From a virus: a stretch of DNA of 21,485 bases. A program made the translations under genes and the position numbers. The stretch is taken from the IMG/VR virus record IMGVR_UViG_3300017759_000107, positions 1 to 21,485 of that record. One strand, written 5' to 3'. The notes below the pieces were generated by a model. It searched no databases. It worked only from the letters and a program-made list of their open reading frames with translations, and was not told where the DNA came from. Shown here in pieces: positions 816 through 17,302 of this stretch (position 1 is the first letter of the stretch; the number at the start of each line of letters is the position of its first letter).

Positions 816-3234
816 ATTAGGTTATCTCCAATATACTTGCAAAAACATCTATGTCACCATCAGCAGAAGCTTGGGTTTCTAATTTATCAGCTGCTCCAAG
901 ATTAATTGGTTTTTCAATTACTACCGTTGAGTCAGCTGGTACATCTACTGTTTTTAACAAAAAGTGTCGTGTTTTAAAGTTAGCACTTCCACTAACGCTC
1001 ACACTAATGGTAGCATCATTTGTACCATCTATGTTACTCAGATACATGGCATGAACAACTGCAGAAGTTGCTGCTGGGCATGTATATAATGTTGTTGTAT
1101 TTGTATTTGAACCTGTTGCGGCACTTTTAAATGTATTAGCCATTATTATCCTCCAAAGACTATTGCCATAGCTGTTGCGTGGTCAATTACCGATGTACCA
1201 CTTTCAAAAATTCTTCCTTCACTATAAATATCACCTGCTGCACTAACTCTTCCAAATGAACCCGTTGAGGTTGCTGAACCACTTATATTTCCTTCTACTT
1301 GAATTTTACCAGCAGCAATTATATCACCATCACCCGCTCCTGTGCCAGTACCCGAAAGAGTGATATCACCAGGCACAGTAATGTCACCAACGGAATCCAT
1401 TTTAAAAACATTCTGAGTTTGATTTCTTGGCGAGATATTAATTTCATCGGTTGAATTGTTTTCACCATAAAGTAGATGTGATATACCACTACCACCCCTC
1501 ATTCTTAATATGGCTCTACCAGAAGAGTGTGTGTTTTCTATTAACATACCACCACCTCTACCATCTACACCTGCAGTATGTACATCACTTGAAAAATCAC
1601 TTAATGCCTGTACTCCATATCTATGAACACCTCTGGTGTTTGTCACAATATTACTGAACGAACCCGTTGAGGTTGCAGAACTACTGATGTTACCAGATGC
1701 AGTGATATTCTGTATAGATGTTATACTGTCATCTGATCCAAATGCTACATCATCTTGAAAAGAAATTGTACTGCTACCATCCCTTGATACAAAACTATCA
1801 GCTGATACCTCACCAACAGCATAAACATGACCAAATGAACCAGTTGAGGTTGATGAACCACTTATGTTACCAGTTGAAGTAATTCCTGTTGTTGTAATTG
1901 CGGCAGTTGTTAATGTATCAGTAAATCTACCAGTTCCGCTTACATCTAATTTACGTGCTGGACTTGAATTTCCGATGCCAACACCAGTGCTATTCATATA
2001 AAAATTATTAGTAGAATCACCAATAAAAAATATAATATCCGAAGTAGCGTTTAATACTGTTCTTGTAGCATTAGCAACTAAAGCATAATTACTAGTTGCG
2101 GGAGTAACAGCACCACTCCATAGTCCACCGAATGAAGCATTATATGCTCCAATTTTAAGTCCACCAGCTGATGTACTCGTTCCACCTACAATATTGAGTG
2201 GTGTTGATACTCCACTTGTTGATACACCAAGAACTTTACCACTTGACACTTGTACTCTACCAAACGAACCAGTTGATGATGCTGAACCACTTACACCACC
2301 TACACTATCGATGGTTAGACTTGAACCAGTAATTACTAAACTACCTGTGATGCTATGTAAATCATCAGTTGTATCACCAAATTTTGTTGAACCGCTTGTA
2401 AATTGAATTGAAGCACTAACAAATTCCGTATGGAATTCTTGTGCAGTTAGGATTCCTGTTACTAGGGCATCACCAACGACATGCAATTCTTTAGTTGGAT
2501 TTGTTGTGCCGATACCGACATTACCTGATGCATCTATTCTAACTCTCTCTGTATTTGATGTGCCAGTATGAAATGTTAGGAAACCAGATTGTAATTTCAT
2601 CTGAGCACCAGCATTTGAGGTAGCATATAAATGGTTTAAAGTAACAACTGTTAGTCCACTATTATCATGTGTAATGTTTAATCCTGCACCACTACCTATT
2701 CTAACATCTCCATTTGAAGAACCGAAAAAAGCTTTGTCTGCTATATCTAATCTTGCAAACGAACCAGTTGAGGTTGATGAACCAGTTATATTTCCAGTTG
2801 TTGTTATAGTTCCAAATGTTGGGGTTGCAGAAGTATGAATGTTCTGAGGTGTGGAAAGTGTTATACTACCTGCTCCATTGGTAACGGTAACTTGGTTCGA
2901 TGTACCAGTTAATGTTGCAATTGTTGGATCACCACTATTATCACCAATTAAAAGTTGTCCATTAGTTAATACTGCGGTTGCTGTTATAGCATCTGTTCCA
3001 CTACCAAGTAAAACACCACCATCGGTAAGTGTACTTACTCCAGTACCACCATCTGCTACTGCTAAATCTGTAATACCATTGATTGTACCACCATTTATAT
3101 CAATCGTGGTAAATGTACCACCATCTGCAACGGTGTTTCCAGCATTAGTCCAATTACCTTGTATGCTATCAATATCTAATGTGTATGAATTTAATCTTCC
3201 GAAAGAACCACTTGATAAAGCTGAACCACTTACA
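61..3234 (-). repeat. Eight-copy ~30-bp repeat encoding SGSxxSTGSFxxx in two fibre genes
   Basis: Imperfect copies begin at about 61, 721, 1258, 1660, 1837, 2266, 2761 and 3205 (plus strand core GAACCAGTTGAGGTTGCTGA with variants). Read on the minus strand each encodes a version of SGSATSTGSFGRV. The copies are irregularly spaced and embedded in coding sequence, so this is a protein repeat also visible in DNA, not a CRISPR array. Confidence 0.8.
817..1143 (-). CDS. Small beta-rich virion protein (hypothetical)
   Basis: A 108-residue protein with no signal peptide, membrane segment or cysteine cluster; its single Cys is in LYTCPAATSA. Alternating hydrophobic and polar residues suggest a compact beta sandwich. 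The pattern of LYTCPAATSAVVHAMYLSNI, then VPADSTVVIEKPINL, then DVFASILEI resembles small structural proteins often found beside phage fibre genes, but I cannot give it a named family. The start is well supported: GGAGG is formed by the last codons of the upstream gene, and its TAA stop lies 2 nt before this ATG, so translation is probably coupled. The downstream fibre gene begins 1 nt after this stop. A fibre tip, fibre connector or decoration role would fit the position but is inferred. Confidence 0.7.
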   Translation of the reverse strand: MANTFKSAATGSNTNTTTLYTCPAATSAVVHAMYLSNIDGTNDATISVSVSGSANFKTRHFLLKTVDVPADSTVVIEKPINLGAADKLETQASADGDIDVFASILEIT

Positions 3235-3344
3235 CTACCCTTACCATCTATTGTAAGGGCTGAGCCCGAGACTCCAAGACTACCAGAAACATTTAAAGAA
3301 CCTGTTAGTACGCTATCAAATTGTTTTAATCTTAACTTAGCCAT
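1146..3344 (-). CDS. Large repetitive phage fibre protein (732 aa)
   Basis: A Gly/Ser/Thr-rich, largely beta protein typical of elongated trimeric fibres, with no signal peptide or membrane helix. Six copies of an SGSxxSTGSF motif punctuate the chain, the first at residues 39-48. Two shaft motifs of the type VGIG..P..KL.V.G occur near residues 273 (NVGIGTTNPTKELHVVG) and 455 (VGIGNSSPARKLDVSG). Around residue 295 it contains GILTAQEFHTEF followed by a GS(T/S)(K/Q)FGDT.DD module that is shared with the gp15-like protein and the LamG protein at 3647-5143. Start: AGAAGGTG lies just before ATG at 3344, and the gene overlaps the upstream small gene by 13 bp. It is probably part of a side or tail fibre. 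Which receptor it binds, and whether it attaches to the neck or baseplate, cannot be told. Confidence 0.8.
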   Translation of the reverse strand: MAKLRLKQFDSVLTGSLNVSGSLGVSGSALTIDGKGSVSGSALSSGSFGRLNSYTLDIDSIQGNWTNAGNTVADGGTFTTIDINGGTINGITDLAVADGGTGVSTLTDGGVLLGSGTDAITATAVLTNGQLLIGDNSGDPTIATLTGTSNQVTVTNGAGSITLSTPQNIHTSATPTFGTITTTGNITGSSTSTGSFARLDIADKAFFGSSNGDVRIGSGAGLNITHDNSGLTVVTLNHLYATSNAGAQMKLQSGFLTFHTGTSNTERVRIDASGNVGIGTTNPTKELHVVGDALVTGILTAQEFHTEFVSASIQFTSGSTKFGDTTDDLHSITGSLVITGSSLTIDSVGGVSGSASSTGSFGRVQVSSGKVLGVSTSGVSTPLNIVGGTSTSAGGLKIGAYNASFGGLWSGAVTPATSNYALVANATRTVLNATSDIIFFIGDSTNNFYMNSTGVGIGNSSPARKLDVSGTGRFTDTLTTAAITTTGITSTGNISGSSTSTGSFGHVYAVGEVSADSFVSRDGSSTISFQDDVAFGSDDSITSIQNITASGNISSSATSTGSFSNIVTNTRGVHRYGVQALSDFSSDVHTAGVDGRGGGMLIENTHSSGRAILRMRGGSGISHLLYGENNSTDEINISPRNQTQNVFKMDSVGDITVPGDITLSGTGTGAGDGDIIAAGKIQVEGNISGSATSTGSFGRVSAAGDIYSEGRIFESGTSVIDHATAMAIVFGG

Positions 3345-3646: not shown

Positions 3647-5143
3647 TTATTCTTTATCCCAAGTTGCACCATCTATCGTTCCATGATTTCCCTGCCCACT
3701 AAAATCATTAACCACACTACCGCTACCCTCATTCATTCTCCAATATGCCTGTAAATCATCTTCATTGATTAAATTATATGGTGTTCCACCATTATAGTAC
3801 AGAGCAGCTTTACTCGATTTATCACCATCAAAAATACCAAATTCTCTTAGTTCACCTGCAAAATGTCTACCACTATTTGTTGAATTATTTTGATATGATC
3901 CTATGGTTAAAGGTTGAGCTTGGGTTTGTAAATTAGATACCGTACCACTCGTTACAAATAAACTAACTCCTACATCAACACCATCAACAAATAATCTAGA
4001 ACCAGTTATTGCATTTACATCGTTAAAAAGTAAAAAGTGATGCCATTCACCATCATCTTGAGCTGATGTGTCGTTAAAAAAAGCATACCAATTATTTCCA
4101 TTCCAAATCAAAGGTCTACCGCTACTCCAATTCGGTGAGAAAGCACCCTTTCTCTGTCCACCATATGCAAACACAGACTCATTTTTAGAAGTTTGACTTG
4201 AATTATACCAAAAAGAATATGTTAGGTTTCTAGGTGTAGCACTACTACCTGAAAATGTGGTTGTTACCTCATCATTACTGCCATCAAAACTCAGATAATT
4301 AAATTCACTTTCAAATTTACCCCAAGCAACAATTTCATCGGTTGATTCCAAATCATACCCCACACCATCGTTATCAATTTCTAGATGAAGTAAAGAACCT
4401 GTTTGTCTTATTGTCAATGCATCGTGTTCTATCATCTGTCCGTTTAAGAAAAACATAAAATCGTTTTCAGTTGTTGTTGTTATACCTGTTGGTGCTGAGG
4501 CGGTTGTCGCTGTAAAACTAGCTGTACTTGAATTTATAAAACTACCAGTATGAGCAAAACATTTTCTCAAGTAAGTCTGAAAATTATTTGTATTATTATC
4601 TATATATGTTTTAAAAGCATTTTCTGTAATTACAGAATTTGATCTATTATCTGCCATAGAGGTATCGTTTGATATTTCTTCTATGGAATCGTTATTTAAT
4701 CGTAATGAACCTGATACTAAAAGACTACCACTAAACTGATGAGTGTCATCGCTTGTGTCTCCAAATTGTGTAGAGCCACTTTCAAATAAAGTAACGGATT
4801 GGGTTAATTCTGTTTCTATTTTTTCAGCTGTTAGAATTCCTTGTACAGTTAAATCACTAGTACCTACAAGATTACTTGATATTGTTTTAGAACCAGCTAA
4901 TGTAAAAGAACCTAATATAGAACTACCAGATAATACCAAACCACCATCGTTAATTGTAATTTTTTTGTTAGTTACTGTTACTTGATCAAATACAACATTT
5001 GAACCCGATGACACTGCTTGACCTATGGAAAATGTGATTGTTTGTGATGGGCTTACCTTTCCAAATAATTCGGTATCATTTGGTTCTATGGTTACACCAG
5101 TAAATTGTTTAAAAATTAATGGTGCTTTAAAAATAAAAGCCAT
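3647..5143 (-). CDS. Fibre-like protein with C-terminal LamG / concanavalin A-like lectin domain
   Basis: A 498-residue protein in two parts. Residues ~35-280 are a Ser/Thr/Gly-rich stalk plus the block VITENAFKTYIDNN, STASFTATTASAP and FFLNGQMIEHDALTI, ending in DEIVAWGKF. This part closely matches residues ~320-563 of the upstream gp15-like protein and is clearly paralogous. Residues ~281-498 look like a LamG/concanavalin A-type jelly roll: YLSFDGSNDEV, LTYSFWY, DGEWHHFLLFND, RLFVDGVDVG, FAGELREFGIF and LQAYWRMNEGSG followed by NHGTIDGATW. Such domains usually bind glycans, so adsorption to surface polysaccharide is the likely role. AGGA lies upstream of ATG 5143. The gene follows the gp15-like gene after 8 nt, which suggests co-expression. 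No signal peptide is present, as expected for a virion protein. The sugar ligand is unknown. Confidence 0.8.
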   Translation of the reverse strand: MAFIFKAPLIFKQFTGVTIEPNDTELFGKVSPSQTITFSIGQAVSSGSNVVFDQVTVTNKKITINDGGLVLSGSSILGSFTLAGSKTISSNLVGTSDLTVQGILTAEKIETELTQSVTLFESGSTQFGDTSDDTHQFSGSLLVSGSLRLNNDSIEEISNDTSMADNRSNSVITENAFKTYIDNNTNNFQTYLRKCFAHTGSFINSSTASFTATTASAPTGITTTTENDFMFFLNGQMIEHDALTIRQTGSLLHLEIDNDGVGYDLESTDEIVAWGKFESEFNYLSFDGSNDEVTTTFSGSSATPRNLTYSFWYNSSQTSKNESVFAYGGQRKGAFSPNWSSGRPLIWNGNNWYAFFNDTSAQDDGEWHHFLLFNDVNAITGSRLFVDGVDVGVSLFVTSGTVSNLQTQAQPLTIGSYQNNSTNSGRHFAGELREFGIFDGDKSSKAALYYNGGTPYNLINEDDLQAYWRMNEGSGSVVNDFSGQGNHGTIDGATWDKE

Positions 5144-5151
5144 TATAAATC

Positions 5152-6843
5152 CTAAGAGTTAAACTTACCTATTGCCAATACCTCATCATCTGTTTCTAGA
5201 TCATAACCTATACCATCGTTATCAACTATTACGTGAAAAGTAGAACCTGCCTGTTGAATTGTAAGTGCATCATGTTCCATATATTGACCATTTATAAAAA
5301 ATATAAAATCATTTTCCGATGTATCAGTTAAATCACTAGGTGCTGAAGCTGTTACTGCTGTGAAACTAGCAGTACTTGGAGCTGTTATGGAAGATGAAGT
5401 CTTTACAAATTGTTTTCTCAAATAAGCCTGTTGAGTATTGGTTTGATTATCCACATAAGTTTTAGCAGCATTTTCCGTAACCAATGATGTAGCACTGCTA
5501 TCATTTAAAGCTGTATCATTTGATATCTCGGTTACGGAATAATTATTTAGTCTTAATGAACCAGATGTGAAAATACTACCGCTGAATTGGTGAGTGTCAT
5601 CTGCAGTATCACCAAACTGTGAAGAACCACTTGAATAAATTATTGAAGCAGATGTAAACTCGGTATGAAATTCTTGAGCTGTTAAAATACCTGCTATTGT
5701 TGTATCACCATTAACAGTTAAACTACCAGTAACGGTTACTGCTCCCAATATACTTAAACTACCACTAATGCTACCATCGTTGTATGTGTTATCACCCAAG
5801 ACAACAGAACTAGCAGAAATTTGATTGAATGTAACATCATCGGTTACTGCTACAGGTTGACCGATTGATATTGTTTGATTTAAAGTAGAGCTACCATTGA
5901 ACTCAATTCCACTATTTGTTAATGTAACACCAGTTCCAGCTGTAAATATTAATGGATTTGTTACTGTAATAGCTATATCCGATACCGTGGTACCTGGTGA
6001 AGAAACTGAATCTGATAAACCCTCTGTAAATTGTCCACTTCTACCAGTAGTATTATTTATTATAGCATCAGATTCCATACCAAATACAAGTTTTTTTGGT
6101 GTTATAAATTTTTGTGTGGTTGAACGATGATCAAAATTACCCTTTGGTAACAAGTAACCTTTTAGAGTAACTGTAAAATTTGTTCTTACCAACCTTTCAC
6201 CATCACTTAATTCTGTTGCATCTGTAAAACTTTCTACATTAGTTCTAAATCTCAGTTTGTTGGGATCACCCCAATAAGCTCCATCTGAATATACTATCCT
6301 TTCCACTATCTTATTCATCTGTTCTATATAAGTTGTCCAAATAATAAAATCATATGTTAATGTAACATAATCTGGTAACATTACGTTGTAATATTCTCGT
6401 TGAGGTATAGTTCCTATTTGAGTTTGAAAATTATCATATCTATTTGTGGTTGAAAATTTCTTTTCAAATGTGTAAAAATGTCGTGGATTATTAGCATCTA
6501 ATTTATCTACTGGTAAACTTTCATCTTTTTCTAATCCAGTTCTGCGATAAACAATTACTGGTGTGATTACTTTTTGTTTTTTATCTCTTATAAAACCATC
6601 TTTACTTATTGACTTCCACCTTTCAGGTGAAGCATACATAACTGGTACTTTTACATTCTCACCGTTATCTTTTACCGATGGTTTTATGATTTCATTAAAA
6701 TAGTATAATATGGAACTATCCATATCCATAAGAGTTACTTCAGCATTTTTTATATTCTCGTTTTTTCTGGAATACAAATACCCTCTGTTTATAACTCTTT
6801 GTTTTCTTGGTAACGGTTTATTAGACTCACTTCGATTTGACAT
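5152..6843 (-). CDS. gp15-like tail completion protein fused to a C-terminal fibre-like domain
   Basis: A 563-residue protein, about twice the length of T4 gp15 (272 aa). Residues ~40-255 resemble the gp15 tail terminator / sheath-stabiliser layout: ILYYFNEIIKPSV, VPVMYASPERW, LPDYVTLTYDFIIWTTYIEQ, MNKIVERI and RLVRTNFTVTLKGYLLP. Gene order gp13-gp14-gp15, as in T4, supports this. Residues ~290-563 are different: a Thr/Ser/Gly-rich stalk with GILTAQEFHTEF, SGSLRLNN, LVTENAAKTYVDN, FFINGQYMEHDALTI and a terminal DEVLAIGKFNS, paralogous to the N-terminal part of the next gene. The start overlaps the gp14 stop by 1 nt (TAATG), with GAGAAG upstream. gp15 normally forms a ring at the top of the tail, so the extension could display fibres at the neck; this is inferred. 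The N-terminal assignment rests on motif pattern, not a computed alignment. Confidence 0.65.
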   Translation of the reverse strand: MSNRSESNKPLPRKQRVINRGYLYSRKNENIKNAEVTLMDMDSSILYYFNEIIKPSVKDNGENVKVPVMYASPERWKSISKDGFIRDKKQKVITPVIVYRRTGLEKDESLPVDKLDANNPRHFYTFEKKFSTTNRYDNFQTQIGTIPQREYYNVMLPDYVTLTYDFIIWTTYIEQMNKIVERIVYSDGAYWGDPNKLRFRTNVESFTDATELSDGERLVRTNFTVTLKGYLLPKGNFDHRSTTQKFITPKKLVFGMESDAIINNTTGRSGQFTEGLSDSVSSPGTTVSDIAITVTNPLIFTAGTGVTLTNSGIEFNGSSTLNQTISIGQPVAVTDDVTFNQISASSVVLGDNTYNDGSISGSLSILGAVTVTGSLTVNGDTTIAGILTAQEFHTEFTSASIIYSSGSSQFGDTADDTHQFSGSIFTSGSLRLNNYSVTEISNDTALNDSSATSLVTENAAKTYVDNQTNTQQAYLRKQFVKTSSSITAPSTASFTAVTASAPSDLTDTSENDFIFFINGQYMEHDALTIQQAGSTFHVIVDNDGIGYDLETDDEVLAIGKFNS

Positions 6844-8622: not shown

Positions 8623-10293
8623 TTAGACATAGTTTACATCAGCAACAATGACTTTTCCGTAGAATTCAGGTCTTACAATCTTCTTTGCATAACGAGTCAT
8701 AACACCTTTACGTGGAGTAAAGTTCTTAGGATCGTATACAAGAGGAGTCATAATTAACGGAACATACGGAGCATACACAGCACCAGTTTCTAGGAAGTTA
8801 CTTCCACGGAAACCAACCAATATCACGTTTTCGAACTGATAAGGGTTTTTGTAAACTGTATATCTGTTGTTCAATAAACCAGCCTTTTGAACACCCATTG
8901 CGTAAGATTTGTTAGTTGAAGCTCCATCACTATCTGTTGTATATCCTGGAATTGATTCTAGGATTGTAGCAACCTCAGGACTTACTACGATGAAGTTTGC
9001 ACCACCACGTAGAGTTTTCTGATGAATTGCATTAGAAACAGATTGTATCTTGTTACCAAGAGTCTGGAACCAATCACCTTTAGTGTATGCATTAGATGCA
9101 CCAGATGATTCAGCAAATAGAGTAGTAGCTGAATTATATTCAAATCCAACTCTTGCTGACCAGCGTTCTGTCTTAGCGTTAGCATTCATGTTAAGCATGT
9201 CAAGGATTTCTAAATCGATTTCCATTGTTACATACTCACTCAATAGAGCTGTTAGTTCTGCTTCAGCATCAACTGAATGGTATGCATTCAAGTCTTGTGC
9301 TAACTCAGGAGTCCATACAGCTTTCAACTTACGAGTCTTAGCAACGATAGGAATTGATCGCATTGCGATATCAATTTCTGGTATATCAATGTCCGTTTCT
9401 GGATTTGCATCGATTTGTGTTGCAGTTGCCTCGAAATCACCACGAGTGACATCAGTAGGCTGTTTGTGATAATTAACAGTTACGTGTAATCCTGCAGCTG
9501 CTACTTCATCTACGATAAAACGTACATGAGAAGCTTCACCACTTGAAGGTTCTACTTCGTTTCCATTAACACCATCCAACATTTTTGTATATGCTGGGTA
9601 GTATGCATCAAATGCAGTTGAACCTGTGATTTCAAAGGCTTTAATACCTTCTTTATCAGGATTAGTCATTGTACTTAAAGCTACATCAAAGTACTTCAAG
9701 CTACTTAAAGATGCTGATAGACCTGGTTCATAATCAACATCAGCCCAAGTAATTGAACCAGTTGAAGTTGCACCAGCTTCAGAAGCTAGACCAATTTCAT
9801 AAGATGTGCCTGGATAATCGTTTATTGAATATCCACTTCTACCTGCACCATAAAGACCTTGTGATGGATCAGCGTTTGAAGCTGATGTGATACCAAATAC
9901 TTGGTCACCATCACCAAATCCAGCTTGAGCTGTACCATATTTAAAATCAAGATAGAAAATCAGACCAGATGGTAGATTCATAGGTTGTACAGATACGAAC
10001 TCTTGAGCTGCTAACTCACCAAAGATTTTTCTTACCAATGGCAACGCAACACCAGACCATTCCTCAGAATTTGCAGATGTTCCAGTTGAACTAGCTTCGT
10101 CAATTAACTGACGGGCTTGGTTTTCTAGAAGAACTGCCATTCCATTAACTTTCTGTTCGTCTGTCATACCTTCTAACAATCCAGTAGGCTCCCACTTCTT
10201 GATTAATCCGCGGGTTTCCTCTTGTCGTTGACGATGTGGGTTATACCCATCCATCAATTTCTCGACTGTAGAGAGATTTTTAAAATTTGACAT
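8623..10293 (-). CDS. 23: Major capsid protein gp23
   Basis: A 556-residue T4-type major capsid precursor (T4: 521 aa). An N-terminal helical region of ~66 residues ends in RQLIDE followed by ASSTG; hydrophobic-X-Glu at residue 66 matches the gp21 cleavage site of T4 gp23 (after residue 65). Family signatures follow: ALPLVRKIFGELAAQEFVSV and then VQPMNLPSGLIFYLDFKYG (residues ~102-120), the same place as VQPMNSPTG in T4, and a C-terminal KGVMTRYAKKIV. The product forms the hexamers of the head shell. GGAGA lies upstream of ATG 10293, and the scaffold gene 22 ends 21 nt before it. A strong terminator follows. The gene reads visibly less AT-rich than neighbouring genes, consistent with codon selection for high expression. 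No gp24-type vertex paralogue is seen in the window. Confidence 0.95.
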   Translation of the reverse strand: MSNFKNLSTVEKLMDGYNPHRQRQEETRGLIKKWEPTGLLEGMTDEQKVNGMAVLLENQARQLIDEASSTGTSANSEEWSGVALPLVRKIFGELAAQEFVSVQPMNLPSGLIFYLDFKYGTAQAGFGDGDQVFGITSASNADPSQGLYGAGRSGYSINDYPGTSYEIGLASEAGATSTGSITWADVDYEPGLSASLSSLKYFDVALSTMTNPDKEGIKAFEITGSTAFDAYYPAYTKMLDGVNGNEVEPSSGEASHVRFIVDEVAAAGLHVTVNYHKQPTDVTRGDFEATATQIDANPETDIDIPEIDIAMRSIPIVAKTRKLKAVWTPELAQDLNAYHSVDAEAELTALLSEYVTMEIDLEILDMLNMNANAKTERWSARVGFEYNSATTLFAESSGASNAYTKGDWFQTLGNKIQSVSNAIHQKTLRGGANFIVVSPEVATILESIPGYTTDSDGASTNKSYAMGVQKAGLLNNRYTVYKNPYQFENVILVGFRGSNFLETGAVYAPYVPLIMTPLVYDPKNFTPRKGVMTRYAKKIVRPEFYGKVIVADVNYV

Positions 10294-11783: not shown

Positions 11784-11792
11784 TAGCCTCCT
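11784..11792 (-). promoter_or_regulatory. Shine-Dalgarno site that fixes the TTG start of bS21
   Basis: AGGAGG on the minus strand (about 11787-11792) shares bases with the TAG stop of the preceding gene and ends 4 nt before TTG 11782. It is one of the strongest such sites in the window and is the main evidence for a non-ATG start. Confidence 0.75.
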
Positions 11793-12417
11793 AATCAGCT
11801 TCGTTATCACCCTGCCAATTCTTATCTATGTAGTTAAAAAAATCTTTTTTCTTATCATCTTCTAATTCATCAGGTGAACTTACATTATATTTTTTCAAAG
11901 CTGCATTAAAGAACTTCTGATATGCTTCCTTATCACCAGACTCTTCGTCAATTGTCTCACCTATGGAATAATATCTGCTTAGGATATTACCCATATCTTC
12001 GTATAAAGCACCCATTCTTTGTTTTAATCCATTTGCTTCAGAAGAAATCTTACTGAACTGCTTAGACAATCCAGTAAGTTCCTTCATATTACGATTTACA
12101 GTTATTTTATCAAACCAACTATCAGTTTCTTGAAGAGTATGAGACTTTGCTTGACTAGCAATCCAACTTAATTTTTCTGATATCTTGGTTATATCGGACT
12201 TACCGAAAATAGATTCTCCTAATTTGTTGTATTGTGCTAACTCAGTAGTTAATCCCTTTACATCAACACTTTGTCCATCTACATCACCGTATTTTTCTTT
12301 TACGATTTTAGATAAACTTTGATCTGTATGAAAAGGTGTACGAGAAACCACACCACCCATTAGTGTACCGCTAAAGTTTTCATTTAGCAAGTCTTTTAGT
12401 TTTATTTTCTTAGACAT
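11791..12417 (-). CDS. Candidate head internal protein with cleavable leader
   Basis: A 208-residue protein I do not recognise. The N-terminus MSKKIKLKDLLNE then NFSG has the shape of a T4 capsid-targeting leader: a short basic/amphipathic helix ending in L-N-E, the gp21 type of site, which would release a mature chain from residue 14. The rest is mostly helical, with heptad-like stretches around residues 90-150 (SKQFSKISSEANGLKQRMG) and an acidic C-terminus. There is no signal peptide, membrane segment or cysteine. AGAGGACAT lies before ATG 12417. The stop forms part of the bS21 ribosome binding site. The location between protease and scaffold/capsid genes suggests a protein packed in the prohead core, perhaps ejected with DNA. 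Function is inferred from leader and context only. Confidence 0.65.
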   Translation of the reverse strand: MSKKIKLKDLLNENFSGTLMGGVVSRTPFHTDQSLSKIVKEKYGDVDGQSVDVKGLTTELAQYNKLGESIFGKSDITKISEKLSWIASQAKSHTLQETDSWFDKITVNRNMKELTGLSKQFSKISSEANGLKQRMGALYEDMGNILSRYYSIGETIDEESGDKEAYQKFFNAALKKYNVSSPDELEDDKKKDFFNYIDKNWQGDNEAD

Positions 12418-13062: not shown

Positions 13063-13455
13063 TTATCTTAGTTTTCCTTTTGGTGAATATCTTCTAAAGC
13101 CATCACGAACCTTTCTCCATAACATTCTCATAAAAGGTCTTTCACCCTCATGTGTTCTGTTAAACGGGCCAACTTTAATTCCCCTCTGTATATCCAAAGC
13201 ATCGTATCTACCAGATTTAACACCATCCATCATGATCTTTATTACTTGTTGTGAAGCCTTACCTAAAACCTTTGACATCTTTTTTATATCAGCGTCTATG
13301 TGTAGTTTAGCTTCACTATCACTATATTTTGGTGGTGTGTCCATATCCTCTTCAATCTGTTGAGATGATTTAAATGAGGTTGCAAATGGATTTGAGTAAA
13401 CCCTACCAGTTGATACCATGTTTTCAGACATTAATTTTTTATAATTTGATTTCAT
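13063..13455 (-). CDS. Candidate head internal protein, 130 aa
   Basis: The N-terminus MKSNYKKLMSE then NMVSTG has the capsid-targeting leader form, with M-S-E at residues 9-11. The body has an acidic segment (EEDMDTPPKYSDSEAKLHID), a helical segment with KKMSKVLGKASQQVIKIMM, and a strongly basic C-terminus (MLWRKVRDGFRRYSPKGKLR) that could contact DNA. No family is recognised. The ATG at 13455 directly follows the stop of the DUF3008 gene (TAAATG) and lacks a clear Shine-Dalgarno site, so translation probably depends on coupling. No membrane segment or cysteine is present. Packaging inside the head with the DNA is the inferred role; it rests on the leader, charge pattern and location. Confidence 0.62.
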   Translation of the reverse strand: MKSNYKKLMSENMVSTGRVYSNPFATSFKSSQQIEEDMDTPPKYSDSEAKLHIDADIKKMSKVLGKASQQVIKIMMDGVKSGRYDALDIQRGIKVGPFNRTHEGERPFMRMLWRKVRDGFRRYSPKGKLR

Positions 13456-14586
13456 TTAAAATTTCTTATTTCCGTCTTTCCAATGAACACCATCATAGTA
13501 TAGATTTGCTTTTCTAATTCCTGTATTCTTTGTTAACTGATTAACAAAAAATCCTTTATCTCGTGGTCGTATTCCAATAACATTTAACTTATTACCCTTT
13601 AATTTATAACTACCCTTATTATTAATACTTCCACTGCGTACTAACATTTTAATCCTATCTTCACCCCTGAGGTTATCATTACTAGTTTCATCAACATTCA
13701 TACTATCTAAATGTGCTTGAATTCTTTTTGATTGACCTAGATGCATCTTTGATGCACCTTCGAGTTCTTTAACTATTTTTTTTAAATCTTCTACATCCTC
13801 TTTTAGTAATCCTTCATCAACTTTATTTTTATTTGTTGGTTTACCTAAACTTTTTCGTATTTCACCCCTAACATACTCTCTTAATTTAGATACAGCTTCA
13901 GTTTTGGATAATTCATTACCTGTTCTAAATGAGATACCTGAAGCTTTGGCTTGTGCTTTAGCATCAGCATCTGACATCTTCTTATCACCTTTTTTCTTAT
14001 CGTCTTTTTTCTTACCCTTGACCTTATCCATCAACTTACTGAAAAAACCCTTTGCTTTCTTATGACCTGGATGATCTTTATCAGCTAGAGCAGTACTCAT
14101 CTTGTTTGTTCTACCTGTTTTTGAATTTTTAATTGTAGCTGTTTGGATGGCACCCATTACAGAGCCTGGTATTTCATTTAAAGTACCTTCCTTTTTCAAC
14201 CTACTCTTTTCAGCTCTTCCTCTGTTTTTAGATTGTGCTTCAAATCCCACGATTTTTCCTCCTTTATGTGATGCATCTTTACCATCACCATTTCCATAAG
14301 TACCTTTTTGTCTGTTGTACTTATTTAATTCAGCTCTATACTTCTTAGATTTTTTAGATGATTGAAATTTCTTATACTCATCCTTGTAATCTCTTTTTGT
14401 TTCTTCCTTAACCTTTACAGGTAAATCATCATGATCTGTTTTTGCATATTTTTTAACAGACTTCTTAGTCATAGACTTTGCTGCTTTCTTTACTGCTTGA
14501 CTTACCTTCGAAGCTGGAACCTCTCCTTTTTTAAAAGCATGAACCAACCCCATAAATTTTTGTTGTTGTTTAGACTTAGCAGGCAT
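13456..14586 (-). CDS. DUF3008-type basic head protein (376 aa)
   Basis: Residues 1-60 match the DUF3008 pattern: MPAKSKQQQKFMGLVHAFKK, a helix with SQAVKKAAKSM, then KKYAKTDHDDLPVKV. Such domains occur alone as short proteins; here one heads a much longer chain. Residues ~65-135 are basic and disordered-looking, L-N-E occurs at 136-138, ~175-205 is a Lys run (KVKGKKKDDKKKGDKK), ~225-300 is helical, and the C-terminus (IRPRDKGFFVNQLTKNTGIR to YYDGVHW) looks like a small folded domain. The high positive charge suggests DNA binding inside the head. The start overlaps the preceding stop by 1 nt (TAATG) with no clear Shine-Dalgarno site. V-D-E at 256-258 and 298-300 are further possible processing sites. 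The molecular role of DUF3008 is not known to me. Confidence 0.7.
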   Translation of the reverse strand: MPAKSKQQQKFMGLVHAFKKGEVPASKVSQAVKKAAKSMTKKSVKKYAKTDHDDLPVKVKEETKRDYKDEYKKFQSSKKSKKYRAELNKYNRQKGTYGNGDGKDASHKGGKIVGFEAQSKNRGRAEKSRLKKEGTLNEIPGSVMGAIQTATIKNSKTGRTNKMSTALADKDHPGHKKAKGFFSKLMDKVKGKKKDDKKKGDKKMSDADAKAQAKASGISFRTGNELSKTEAVSKLREYVRGEIRKSLGKPTNKNKVDEGLLKEDVEDLKKIVKELEGASKMHLGQSKRIQAHLDSMNVDETSNDNLRGEDRIKMLVRSGSINNKGSYKLKGNKLNVIGIRPRDKGFFVNQLTKNTGIRKANLYYDGVHWKDGNKKF

Positions 14587-14933
14587 TACTTATACTGTTT
14601 TAGTTCCATATCACATTTTTTCAACATTACAGCCATCATTTTAGTATATTTTTTAATTATTTTATATGGTTCTTTTTCTTCCATCATACCAGAAAATTTT
14701 CTCCATGATTTGGTTCGGTTAAGTACTTCATCTTCCATATACTCAAGTGCGATATCATTATAATCTCGATTGGTTGATGATTCTTTTATAGTTGATTTAC
14801 ACCCACATGAATTACCAGTATCACAACCACACGATTCATTGGTTTTTTCAATCACGGATTTTAATGTTGGAAGTGGTTCACCAAAACTCCTATCCCAAAC
14901 ATTCTCACTTAACATCTCTTTTAATTTTATCAT
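14586..14933 (-). CDS. Candidate head internal protein with CxC...CxC motif
   Basis: A 115-residue protein with the clearest T4-style leader: MIKLKEMLSE then NVWD, with L-S-E at residues 8-10. After it, SCGCDTGNSCGC places four Cys as two CGC pairs about 6 residues apart near residues 34-44, a possible metal site unusual for a protein made in the reducing cytoplasm. The C-terminal half is helical and basic (KPYKIIKKYTKMM-type: EKEPYKIIKKYTKMMAVMLK), ending CDMELKQYK. AAGGAAA lies before ATG 14933. The stop overlaps the start of the DUF3008 gene by 1 nt. I do not recognise a family. Packaging in the prohead and possible injection are inferred. Confidence 0.62.
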   Translation of the reverse strand: MIKLKEMLSENVWDRSFGEPLPTLKSVIEKTNESCGCDTGNSCGCKSTIKESSTNRDYNDIALEYMEDEVLNRTKSWRKFSGMMEEKEPYKIIKKYTKMMAVMLKKCDMELKQYK

Positions 14934-14945
14934 TATATTTTCCTT

Positions 14946-15179
14946 TTAATCCCAACCTTTATAAGCTTTATCTAAATATCTAGTTAATTCATCGTCTAGT
15001 TTATATATTTTATTAATAATAGATTTGAGTTTACCATCACTTTTAAGTTTTTTATTAGCTAATTCACCTAATCCCTCAACTGCATCACCGAATTCATAAT
15101 AAGCATCTCGTATATTATCTAATTCTGCTCCAGAATTTTCTCCAAATAATCTCTTATATGTTTTTTTTAAACTTCTCAT
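14946..15179 (-). CDS. Small head-region protein with leader, 77 aa
   Basis: The N-terminus MRSLKKTYKRLFGE then NSGAE is basic and ends in F-G-E at residues 12-14, similar to the leaders of the neighbouring genes. The remaining ~63 residues are acidic-to-neutral helices (LDNIRDAYYEFGDAVEGLGE, then NKIYKLDDELTRYLDKAY). AAAAGGAAA lies in the last codons of the upstream gene, and the ATG overlaps its stop by 1 nt, so translation should be coupled. No family is recognised. Its size is close to T4 gp67 (80 aa), a small prohead core protein, but no sequence match is evident. Confidence 0.6.
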   Translation of the reverse strand: MRSLKKTYKRLFGENSGAELDNIRDAYYEFGDAVEGLGELANKKLKSDGKLKSIINKIYKLDDELTRYLDKAYKGWD

Positions 15180-15430
15180 TACATTTTCCTTTTAAGGTTT
15201 TCAAATTTTGCTTTAAATTCTAAAATGTAATTTTTATAAAGTTTTTGCATTTCCATAGACTCGGCTTTCATTCCATCCTTACCCAAATCCCTAGCAAATT
15301 GTTTAACATTCTTATCCAATCTGACTAAACTGCTATCTATATTACTGACATATCCTCTGAAATAATTTGGAATGGATTCATCCAACCGCCAATCTCTCCA
15401 CTTTTCTATAATTGATTTTTCTCTAGGCAT
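15179..15430 (-). CDS. Small helical head-region protein, 83 aa
   Basis: An 83-residue helical, basic protein starting MPREKSIIEKWRDWRLDE then SIPNYF; L-D-E at residues 16-18 could be a processing site. The C-terminus is Lys-rich (ILEFKAKFENLKRKM). GAGAGGAAA lies within the last codons of the protease gene, and ATG 15430 is 1 nt after its stop, so the pair is translated together. No family is recognised. The tight coupling to gene 21 makes a prohead core role plausible. Confidence 0.6.
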   Translation of the reverse strand: MPREKSIIEKWRDWRLDESIPNYFRGYVSNIDSSLVRLDKNVKQFARDLGKDGMKAESMEMQKLYKNYILEFKAKFENLKRKM

Positions 15431-15431
15431 T

Positions 15432-16058
15432 TTAGTTTCCTCTCATTATATCATTGATGATTGATTCAACCTTACAATACTCACCACAGGTTCTACCACT
15501 AGTTATGGTCTTATCAACGCTCTCATTTACGCCCGTAGGATACATGAATGCACCATGTGTAGATGGATTTGAAACAAAGTCAAATGCGATCAATTCAAAA
15601 TCATCCTGTACTTCTTGTGATTGTCCACCATTATCCTCTGTTACAGTTTCTACTGAACCCATACCACGAGAACTAATACCAAGTTTTATATTACCCTTAA
15701 ATAATTCTTTTAATATGTTACCACTCGGTGTGGATAATACTTCAACAGTACCTAATAAATTATCACCTTCCCAATGCATGTCTTTTATATTATGGGATAC
15801 ATTCTGTAAATTTACCACCGATGATTCTGGATGATCTAGTTCACCCATAGCCCTACGTTGACTAATAAATTCCTTATGATACTTTTTAGCCTCACGAGTT
15901 AATATTTCTCTTGGATATACCCTACCGTTTTGATTCTTAGCTTCAGCACGTTGTAATACACCCTTAACAATTAATTTACCATTGTTTTCACTCATGGATT
16001 CATTAATATGTTCTGGTTTAATTTCAAATGGTAAATAATCTACTATTAGTTGTTTCAT
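15432..16058 (-). CDS. 21: Prohead maturation protease gp21
   Basis: A 208-residue protein, close to T4 gp21 (212 aa). It cleaves scaffold, capsid and internal proteins during head maturation. Family features: GKLIVKGVLQRAEAKNQNGR and VYPREIL (residues ~27-54), the catalytic-His block MGELDHPESS (His76), IKDMHWEGDNLLGTVEVLST (residues ~91-110), the Ser block KLGISSRGMGS (Ser129 or Ser130), and the conserved AFDFVSNPST (residues ~159-167). These fit the herpesvirus-protease-like fold of gp21. Possible self-processing sites are I-N-E near residue 20 and V-N-E at 177-179. The start overlaps the stop of the 62-residue gene by 4 nt (ATGA). It lies between portal and capsid genes, as in T4. Confidence 0.92.
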   Translation of the reverse strand: MKQLIVDYLPFEIKPEHINESMSENNGKLIVKGVLQRAEAKNQNGRVYPREILTREAKKYHKEFISQRRAMGELDHPESSVVNLQNVSHNIKDMHWEGDNLLGTVEVLSTPSGNILKELFKGNIKLGISSRGMGSVETVTEDNGGQSQEVQDDFELIAFDFVSNPSTHGAFMYPTGVNESVDKTITSGRTCGEYCKVESIINDIMRGN

Positions 16059-16243
16059 TTATCTTTTCCCATCATTATTTCTGTTTTTAGACTTTCCAAC
16101 ATTTCAATCCATTGGGTTAGTCTTGTAATCATATAATTCTTGTCTATTTCCTTACTCTGTATCTCTGTTTGCCATCTTTTTAACAAAGTAGATATACTGA
16201 ACAAGGTATCCATATAGGATTTCTTCTTCTCTTCAAAAGGCAT
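16055..16243 (-). CDS. Small helical protein before the protease, 62 aa
   Basis: A 62-residue helical protein (MPFEEKKKSYMDTLFSISTL, then KRWQTEIQSKEIDKNYMITR and IEMLESLKTEIMMGKDK) without signal peptide, membrane segment or cysteine. A weak GAGAAAC lies upstream of ATG 16243, and the TGA stop overlaps the protease ATG by 4 nt, a typical coupled pair. It occupies the place of T4 genes 67/68 between portal and protease, but I see no sequence match to either. A small prohead core or protease-associated protein is the best guess from context. Confidence 0.6.
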   Translation of the reverse strand: MPFEEKKKSYMDTLFSISTLLKRWQTEIQSKEIDKNYMITRLTQWIEMLESLKTEIMMGKDK

Positions 16244-16255
16244 AATGTTTCTCGG

Positions 16256-17302
16256 TTACTGTAATTTTCCAACTTTATTAGCTAATTTAACTAACCTTTC
16301 ACTTATTTTATGTAACGCCTTGTGTGTATTTTTCCAATATGAACCTGAATTCACATTCATTTCTTTCTTTAATCTAACATTCATATCAATTAGTTTACTT
16401 AATTCACTTAAAGAATTTTTAACCTCTCTCATTGAATGACCAATTTTTTGTTTTGGAGTCATCGACTCATCATTTCTGTAATCGTGGTATTTTCCCTCAT
16501 TTAAACCTGGATTTTTTTGTTTTTGATTATTCCATCCGTTTAAAAACTCATAAAATTTGTTAACATACTTTTTAAATGCGGTATATATTATTTTTTGATC
16601 TGTTCTATCTCCATCAATATCTACTGCAGATTTAGTTAAAATTACCACTTCTCTATTAAACTGTTCATATGCTTTATAAAATCTATTCCACGCTTTGTTG
16701 TATTTTTTCTTTTGACCTTCATTTACGGATTCTTTTACACCTGTACCACCCATTTGTTTATAAACCTTTATTAGATTCTTTAGGTGTTCTTCATCTCTTG
16801 CATTAGTGACGCTACCTTGTTTCTTAATCTTCTTTTGAAACATCAGTATAGCATCTTTAATCTTTTTCAATTCTACTTTAGCTAAAGTTCGTTTATAAGC
16901 CATACCAACATTGTCTCTTTCATTTACGGATTCATTAGCCGTAAGAAATGAAATGTATTGGGCTAATTGTGCTGGTGTTGCTCCAGACCTATCCCCTTTG
17001 GCTTTCTTATAGTGTTTATCCACCCACGGTTTTACTTCTTTTGGATTATTACCATACTTTATTAAAAATTTTACAATCTTTGCTTTTTCTGCGGAGTTTT
17101 CATTTACTTTTTTATATCCTGTGGAGTTTGTGGAGATTTCTTCCTCTTTATCCTTGTCTTTTTTCTTTTTTCCTCTAAAAGCATAAGGTGTTTTCGGTGG
17201 GCCTTCTCCACCATCAAGTGCACCAGTAACAGAAGCTTCCTCTAACTCATCTTCTATGACCTCTGTAATGTATTCTTTAATCTTACTAAGATTTATGGAC
17301 AT
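16256..17302 (-). CDS. Multi-module helical head protein with repeated V/L-N-E sites (possible polyprotein)
   Basis: A 348-residue, Lys-rich, mostly helical protein. Residues 1-22 form an amphipathic acidic leader with I-K-E, I-T-E and L-E-E; 23-60 are disordered-looking (GEGPPKTPYAFRGKKKKDKD). V-N-E then occurs at 66-68, 126-128 and 193-195, and L-N-E at 267-269. These sites split the rest into four helical pieces of about 60, 67, 74 and 79 residues, each predicted compact. Because gp21 cuts after hydrophobic-X-Glu and its gene is nearby, this may be a precursor cut into several internal proteins; that is inferred. AAGGAG lies in the last codons of the upstream gene, which it overlaps by 17 bp. 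No family is recognised for any module, and no catalytic motif is seen. Confidence 0.68.
   Translation of the reverse strand: MSINLSKIKEYITEVIEDELEEASVTGALDGGEGPPKTPYAFRGKKKKDKDKEEEISTNSTGYKKVNENSAEKAKIVKFLIKYGNNPKEVKPWVDKHYKKAKGDRSGATPAQLAQYISFLTANESVNERDNVGMAYKRTLAKVELKKIKDAILMFQKKIKKQGSVTNARDEEHLKNLIKVYKQMGGTGVKESVNEGQKKKYNKAWNRFYKAYEQFNREVVILTKSAVDIDGDRTDQKIIYTAFKKYVNKFYEFLNGWNNQKQKNPGLNEGKYHDYRNDESMTPKQKIGHSMREVKNSLSELSKLIDMNVRLKKEMNVNSGSYWKNTHKALHKISERLVKLANKVGKLQ

Follow-up and report, generated by a model that had tools for sequence, protein, structure and literature searches.

The 348-aa protein encoded near the prohead protease gene of this virus is probably a head-core polyprotein, assembled by cassette exchange and cut by gp21 at the regularly spaced sites between its modules. 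Observed here are its modular anatomy, the exchange of modules at the sites, the conservation of a DNA seam at the junctions and the match between its first site and that of the major capsid protein. An earlier note on this DNA had already read the gene as a polyprotein, and this is still the best reading of the sequence evidence, one that would imply both cutting and presence in the virion. The note was correct but understates what the gene holds: it mentioned neither the better supported site LEE22↓A23, nor a second array gene, nor the small genes with leaders ending x-x-E. Table 1 lists the features of the window, the 21,485-nt stretch of viral DNA analysed.

Table 1. Coordinates of the array gene, its parts and its neighbours in the window (↓, putative cut or module boundary)
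Feature	Coordinates	Strand	Basis
348-aa protein built of a constant N-part, three exchangeable modules and a constant C-module	16256..17302	(-)	translation and orthologue comparison
Residues 1-22, leader with a predicted helix, similar to a capsid targeting sequence, ends LEE↓AS	17237..17302	(-)	
Putative gp21 site 1, L-E-E (20-22) before ASVTG	17237..17245	(-)	
Residues 23-68, conserved N-module, predicted disordered	17099..17236	(-)	
Putative site 2, VNE 66-68; C-module joined directly here in short orthologues	17099..17107	(-)	
Module 2 (69-128), net charge +5; related modules in arrays of the DUF3008 locus; replaced in L003	16919..17098	(-)	
15-nt seam GAATCCGTAAATGAA, ESVNE (124-128), putative site 3	16919..16933	(-)	
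Module 3 (129-195), net charge +8; recurs in the arrays of L080, L055, L033, L095 and L100; replaced in L003	16718..16918	(-)	
15-nt seam GAATCCGTAAATGAA, ESVNE (191-195), putative site 4	16718..16732	(-)	
Module 4 (196-269), helical hairpin by prediction, net charge +7; L057, L062 and L121 have it as a stand-alone gene	16496..16717	(-)	
Putative site 5, LNE 267-269	16496..16504	(-)	
Constant C-module (270-348), DNA 99.6% identical in L003	16259..16495	(-)	
Terminase-like gene	20094-21479		gene order and sequence look
62-aa gene separating array from gp21	16055..16243	(-)	DNA 100% identical in L003
gp21-like S77 prohead protease, presumed processing enzyme	15432..16058	(-)	Pfam S77, E = 8e-29
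83-aa gene, leader ends RLDE then SIPNYF	15179..15430	(-)	
115-aa gene, leader MIKLKEMLSE↓	14586..14933	(-)	
Second array gene (376 aa), with a DUF3008 module, a DYKDEYKK module and others	13456..14586	(-)	
130-aa gene, leader MKSNYKKLMSE↓	13063..13455	(-)	
208-aa gene, leader MSKKIKLKDLLNE↓	11791..12417	(-)	
Major capsid protein, putative maturation site IDE (64-66) before ASSTGTSA, reference for gp21 specificity here	10096..10104	(-)	

Genes in the window follow the order terminase-like, portal gp20 (Pfam, E = 7e-76), 289-aa gene, 348-aa array, 62-aa gene, gp21, small genes, acidic scaffold-like gene and major capsid protein. The gp21 gene that the earlier note had seen just downstream of the array is confirmed by its S77 match and follows after the 62-aa gene. 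Portal gp20 thus flanks the array site on one side and gp21 on the other; since the T4 order is 20-67-68-21-22-23, the array takes the position of the core proteins gp67 and gp68. Profile comparison of the 348-aa protein with gp68 gave no homology (hhalign probability 0.1%). It is gene position and leader that suggest the label of head protein, and several small genes of the window carry similar leaders ending x-x-E.

VNE at residues 66-68, 126-128 and 193-195 and LNE at 267-269 stand exactly where they had been placed in the 348-aa protein, and their regular spacing (60, 67 and 74 residues) fits the module lengths of relatives (median 70 aa, n = 95). By expectation there would be 0.45 [VLI]NE motifs, and four or more [VL]NE occurred in the shuffled protein with p = 0.00015 (20,000 shuffles). 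No other window gene holds four such motifs; there are three in the 289-aa neighbour (p = 0.012) and two in gp21. A full-length structure model of poor quality (pTM 0.25) placed the sites in coil between helices or at the edge of coil and predicted no single fold that would bury them, in both respects at low confidence. Modelled alone, module 4 was predicted to form a helical hairpin (pLDDT 89.4) with a weakly defined, low-confidence C-terminal tail at the site, as expected if modules fold alone. Searches with this fold in viral and PDB libraries gave no match with E < 1.

A scan of viral contigs returned 80 loci, mostly matching the query in part, from which the orthologue set was formed as the 70 distinct sequences with the constant C-terminal end (133-441 aa; uncultured, mostly marine T4 relatives). 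Orthologues consist of a constant N-terminus, none to several exchangeable modules and a constant C-terminus, and the shortest are N-part and C-part joined at VNE, VKE or VTE. In the comparison of homologues that the note had proposed, the sites are kept while the modules vary: the residue triplet directly before the C-module ends in Glu in 70/70 sequences and reads [VILM]-x-E in 65/70, with a variable middle residue (N, K, T, S, D or R). The leader ends in [VILM]xE followed by [AV][STN] in 68/70, usually AST or ASV.

Modules are gained and lost at the [VIL]-x-E junctions. The DNA of L037 and L041 is near-identical: where the two align they differ by a single substitution, and one carries a clean insertion of 204 nt with its boundaries after VKE and after ESVNE. 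Among about 100 indel pairs in two array families, read from the list rather than scored, most boundaries fell at or beside a Glu codon. Compared with L003, the gp21, 62-aa and 289-aa genes of the window are 97.4-100% identical. In the array, identity is 95% for module 1, 91% for module 4 and 99.6% for module 5; modules 2 and 3 show only 62% and 57% and have thus been replaced. The second array gene is 97% identical to L088 up to nt 771 and divergent beyond. Two findings fit less well: generic BLAST breakpoints coincided exactly with sites in 9.2% versus 1.4%, a modest enrichment diluted by gapped extension, and the boundaries of arrays at the DUF3008 locus often read RLKKE↓ or KKE↓, not [VIL]xE. 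Leaders are exchangeable as well, since the 83-aa gene has RLDE↓SIPNYF in the window and FLNE↓GIPNYF in L107.

The modules recur outside the orthologues. Module 2 was seen again in 13 DUF3008-locus sequences and module 3 in several arrays of that locus, and module 4 was found not only in 13 orthologues but also in arrays at the DUF3008 locus and in stand-alone genes whose leaders end in ESINE or ETINE. The longest arrays measure 839 aa (L166) and 1315 aa (L205). The 95 internal modules carry a mean net charge of +7.3, 98% of them being basic, and nearly all belong to families of unknown function (Pfam, PHROGs, PADLOC); the PADLOC search of the modules gave nothing convincing. With iterated profiles, ribosomal protein S21 was added to the module 3 family, and as Pfam gave no S21 match on module 3 sequences, this membership was dropped as drift. 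That the 83-aa and 77-aa genes of the window resemble module 4 is a weak lead from an iterated profile, which also drew in S21, and 12-17% identity. The DYKDEYKK-type matches in cyanopodoviruses are related stand-alone proteins with no bearing on cleavage; an 82-aa stand-alone relative in podovirus P-SSP7 (L170 1980-2228) adjoins the small terminase gene.

Similar architectures were noticed elsewhere. At a third array site (L167 2674-4044, minus strand), beside tail genes, lies a 456-aa array-like protein. Its seams are of the ESINE and ESVNE types, and its conserved C-terminal end (...SCRKW) recurs in L191, L210 and L211. The scaffold-like protein of Flavobacterium phage immuto (L083 9898-11139) contains a stretch of roughly 60 aa (GFEQWLDSVSAQMDK...) twice in tandem, with VNE or LEE ahead of each copy, and is a case of a module duplicated within a scaffold. 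Three tail-region proteins of the window (1146-3344, 3647-5143 and 5152-6843) each contain a segment resembling LTAQEFHTEF..SGSTQFGDTSDDTHQFSGS, which appears to be a repeated module common to the three genes.

A hint of virion presence exists for the family of DUF3008, the first module of the second array, which is a 70-aa protein annotated 'virion protein' in cyanophage S-SCSM1, where its neighbours, a 410-aa NMNAT and a 521-aa protein, are both annotated as virion proteins. The virion proteins of S-SCSM1 were identified by mass spectrometry, to which the 70-aa protein is linked by record annotation. The S-SCSM1 NMNAT (L171 194-1423) begins with the leader MKSFLQFLKE↓A, much like a capsid targeting sequence, and such a leader might explain how metabolic enzymes enter cyanophage heads.

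These observations bear on the fate of the pieces, the only point on which a pure scaffold differs from the explanation that we prefer. Here the chain would be a core protein of the gp67/gp68 kind, cut in the same way, whose fragments exit the head; its modules would have no cargo role and would vary because many basic fillers work. The array does occupy the position of T4 67/68, and in T4 the cutting of gp22, gp67 and gp68 yields numerous fragments that mostly exit (PMC9026906), but modules that are diverse, kept as discrete units and present as genes of their own, together with a DUF3008 protein annotated in mature S-SCSM1 virions, make this explanation somewhat unlikely.

At the junctions the DNA is conserved beyond codon need as a 15-nt seam, GAATC[C/T]GTAAATGAA, and conservation falls off at either end. 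Within the 179 ORFs of the family, the encoded ES[VIL]NE was counted 116 times. The same loci hold 435 other ORFs of 200 aa or longer, and there the motif was confined to further array-like ORFs or gp21 and one unclassified 406-aa ORF (L140). Codons were counted at 80 junctions with unrelated upstream 12 residues. Ser was TCC/TCT in 70/80 (38% in the same genes), Val was GTA in 57/61 (44%) and the first Glu was GAA in 79/80 (77%), with binomial p between 2e-8 and 4e-22 if junctions are taken as independent, which shared descent would violate; the bias could come from common descent alone. The copy of the motif within gp21 uses other codons (TCC once in 19). A pattern-only scan of IMG/VR viral contigs for two seams 165-195 nt apart found 40 stretches, in which the span was divisible by 3 in 48/48 seam pairs (chance 1/3 each) and the pairs enclosed 29 non-redundant modules without stop codons, while the pattern written backwards gave 0-1 matches per record. 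S77 protease was present in 16/24 seam-pair contigs and gp23 in two of the other eight, all contigs being fragments.

The strongest evidence that the junctions may be gp21 cut sites is the match of the first site to that of the capsid protein. T4 gp21 recognises L/I-X-E and cuts after it (PMC9026906), and T4 gp23 sheds a 65-residue propeptide at its LTE (63-65). The major capsid protein of these phages has I[KD]E↓ASxTG at residue 62-66, matched by LEE↓ASVTG at site 1 in the window, and array leaders commonly end L[ED]E↓AS[VT]TG. In cultured phages, the homologue and the capsid protein read KMNE↓ENVTG and LISE↓ANRTG (Microcystis phage Mel-JY01) and VLEE↓MSTTG and IVSE↓ANVTG (immuto). The Mel-JY01 homologue is 178 aa long and has a second predicted cut, AVNE↓VSYKIYRED; immuto has a 73-aa N-module gene and a 360-aa protein. 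Against cutting, Val dominates P3 of the seams, whereas T4 prefers Leu/Ile.

The protease itself carries the motif. In the gp21 proteins of L051, L058, L073 and others (residues about 136-140 and 173-180), ES[VI]NE lies near the C-terminus and, in some of them, in a loop after the catalytic serine region; the window gp21 contains INE 18-20, VTE 139-141 and VNE 177-179. The ES[VI]NE copies are possible self-processing sites. A cut at the internal ESVNE near 136-140 might inactivate gp21, a point that counts against cutting.

The constraint before the C-module also speaks to whether the chain is cut at all. Its form is that of a protease pattern (P1 always Glu, P3 aliphatic, P2 free), even where the seam DNA is absent (VKE, VTE), which is hard to reconcile with an uncut chain of beads on a string, in which ESVNE would be linker and recombination seam and the intact multi-domain protein would work in the core or as an internal protein. 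We regard such a chain as quite improbable: conservation of the seam at the DNA level would suit it, and phages are known to deliver multi-domain proteins along with their DNA (PMC5512222), but the first site matches that of the capsid protein and modules also exist as separate proteins. That Glu- and Asn-rich late proteins, in which loose [VLI]xE is frequent, merely produced VNE motifs and misaligned repeats by chance or low complexity is almost certainly wrong, given the shuffling result, the clean DNA indels, the seam pairs found in frame by pattern only and the near-absence of backwards matches.

We therefore return to the head-core polyprotein, for which the following course of events can be proposed. 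The leader of about 22 residues, a putative capsid targeting sequence, and the constant C-module would place the chain in the prohead core, with exchangeable modules of about 60-80 aa between them. During head maturation, gp21 would cut after the Glu of [VIL]-x-E at residues 22, 68, 128, 195 and 269, and the released small basic proteins would remain with the DNA as internal proteins or exit as core fragments; cutting, head location and the function of released modules are what we infer from sequence. The module pool is common to related phages and to at least two loci. The seam would be a protease site and at once provide homology for the in-frame exchange of modules: because the sequence coding for the cut site varies little from one module end to the next, one sequence would serve both roles, its conservation being what suggests that it drives recombination. 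Tentatively, and with somewhat less than even confidence, we extend this to a cassette system for head cargo, in which one polyprotein with a dual-role seam would supply interchangeable injected small proteins, possibly directed against host defences.

The cut site appears to define evolutionary units, in that whole modules enter or leave a head protein while the rest is undisturbed. If true, a phage could alter its set of small head proteins in this way, which would explain quick variation of head contents. The family would offer a large pool of small modules, uncharacterised and associated with the head, that could be screened for activity against host defences, and natural examples of several proteins packaged from one gene.

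Prohead proteases of tailed phages are known for propeptide trimming and scaffold clearing. Closest in position are T4 gp67 and gp68 (with gp22), which like the array lie between gp20 and gp21, have several L/I/V-x-E sites per chain and are cut by gp21 into multiple fragments (PMC9026906, PMC5694885), as the array would be; unlike it, they have not been described in terms of exchangeable cassettes joined by a conserved DNA seam. T4 IPI, IPII, IPIII and Alt have a short N-terminal leader ending in a gp21 site, yield small basic products and vary between phages (PMC9026906). Array leaders end in a gp21-type site too and would serve capsid targeting, and several small genes of the window resemble these internal proteins, but T4 makes one protein per gene, whereas the array joins several modules behind one leader in one chain. 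Polyvalent proteins, with 2-15 domains per chain, are likewise mosaic and thought to be delivered with DNA (PMC5512222). Their domains are recognisable and often enzymatic, with no regular protease seams described, whereas the 60-80 aa modules of the array are mostly of unknown family; the search for the enzymatic or DNA-binding domains expected of a polyvalent protein (Pfam, PHROGs, PADLOC) gave almost only families of unknown function. Many inner-head proteins of phiKZ and SPN3US are cut by the prohead protease after a short Glu-ending motif, with several propeptide sites (PMC5694885); these sites trim propeptides and, unlike those of the array, have not been described as boundaries within a series of exchangeable modules. 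In the open-access literature, to which the search was confined, we found no earlier description of a phage head polyprotein cut at regular sites. By analogy only, Rhs and other polymorphic toxins have a conserved cut motif before a variable tip; they differ in having a single C-terminal tip and in involving other proteins and chemistry. Set against these systems, what is new is the exchange of cassettes, with a seam that may have a double purpose.
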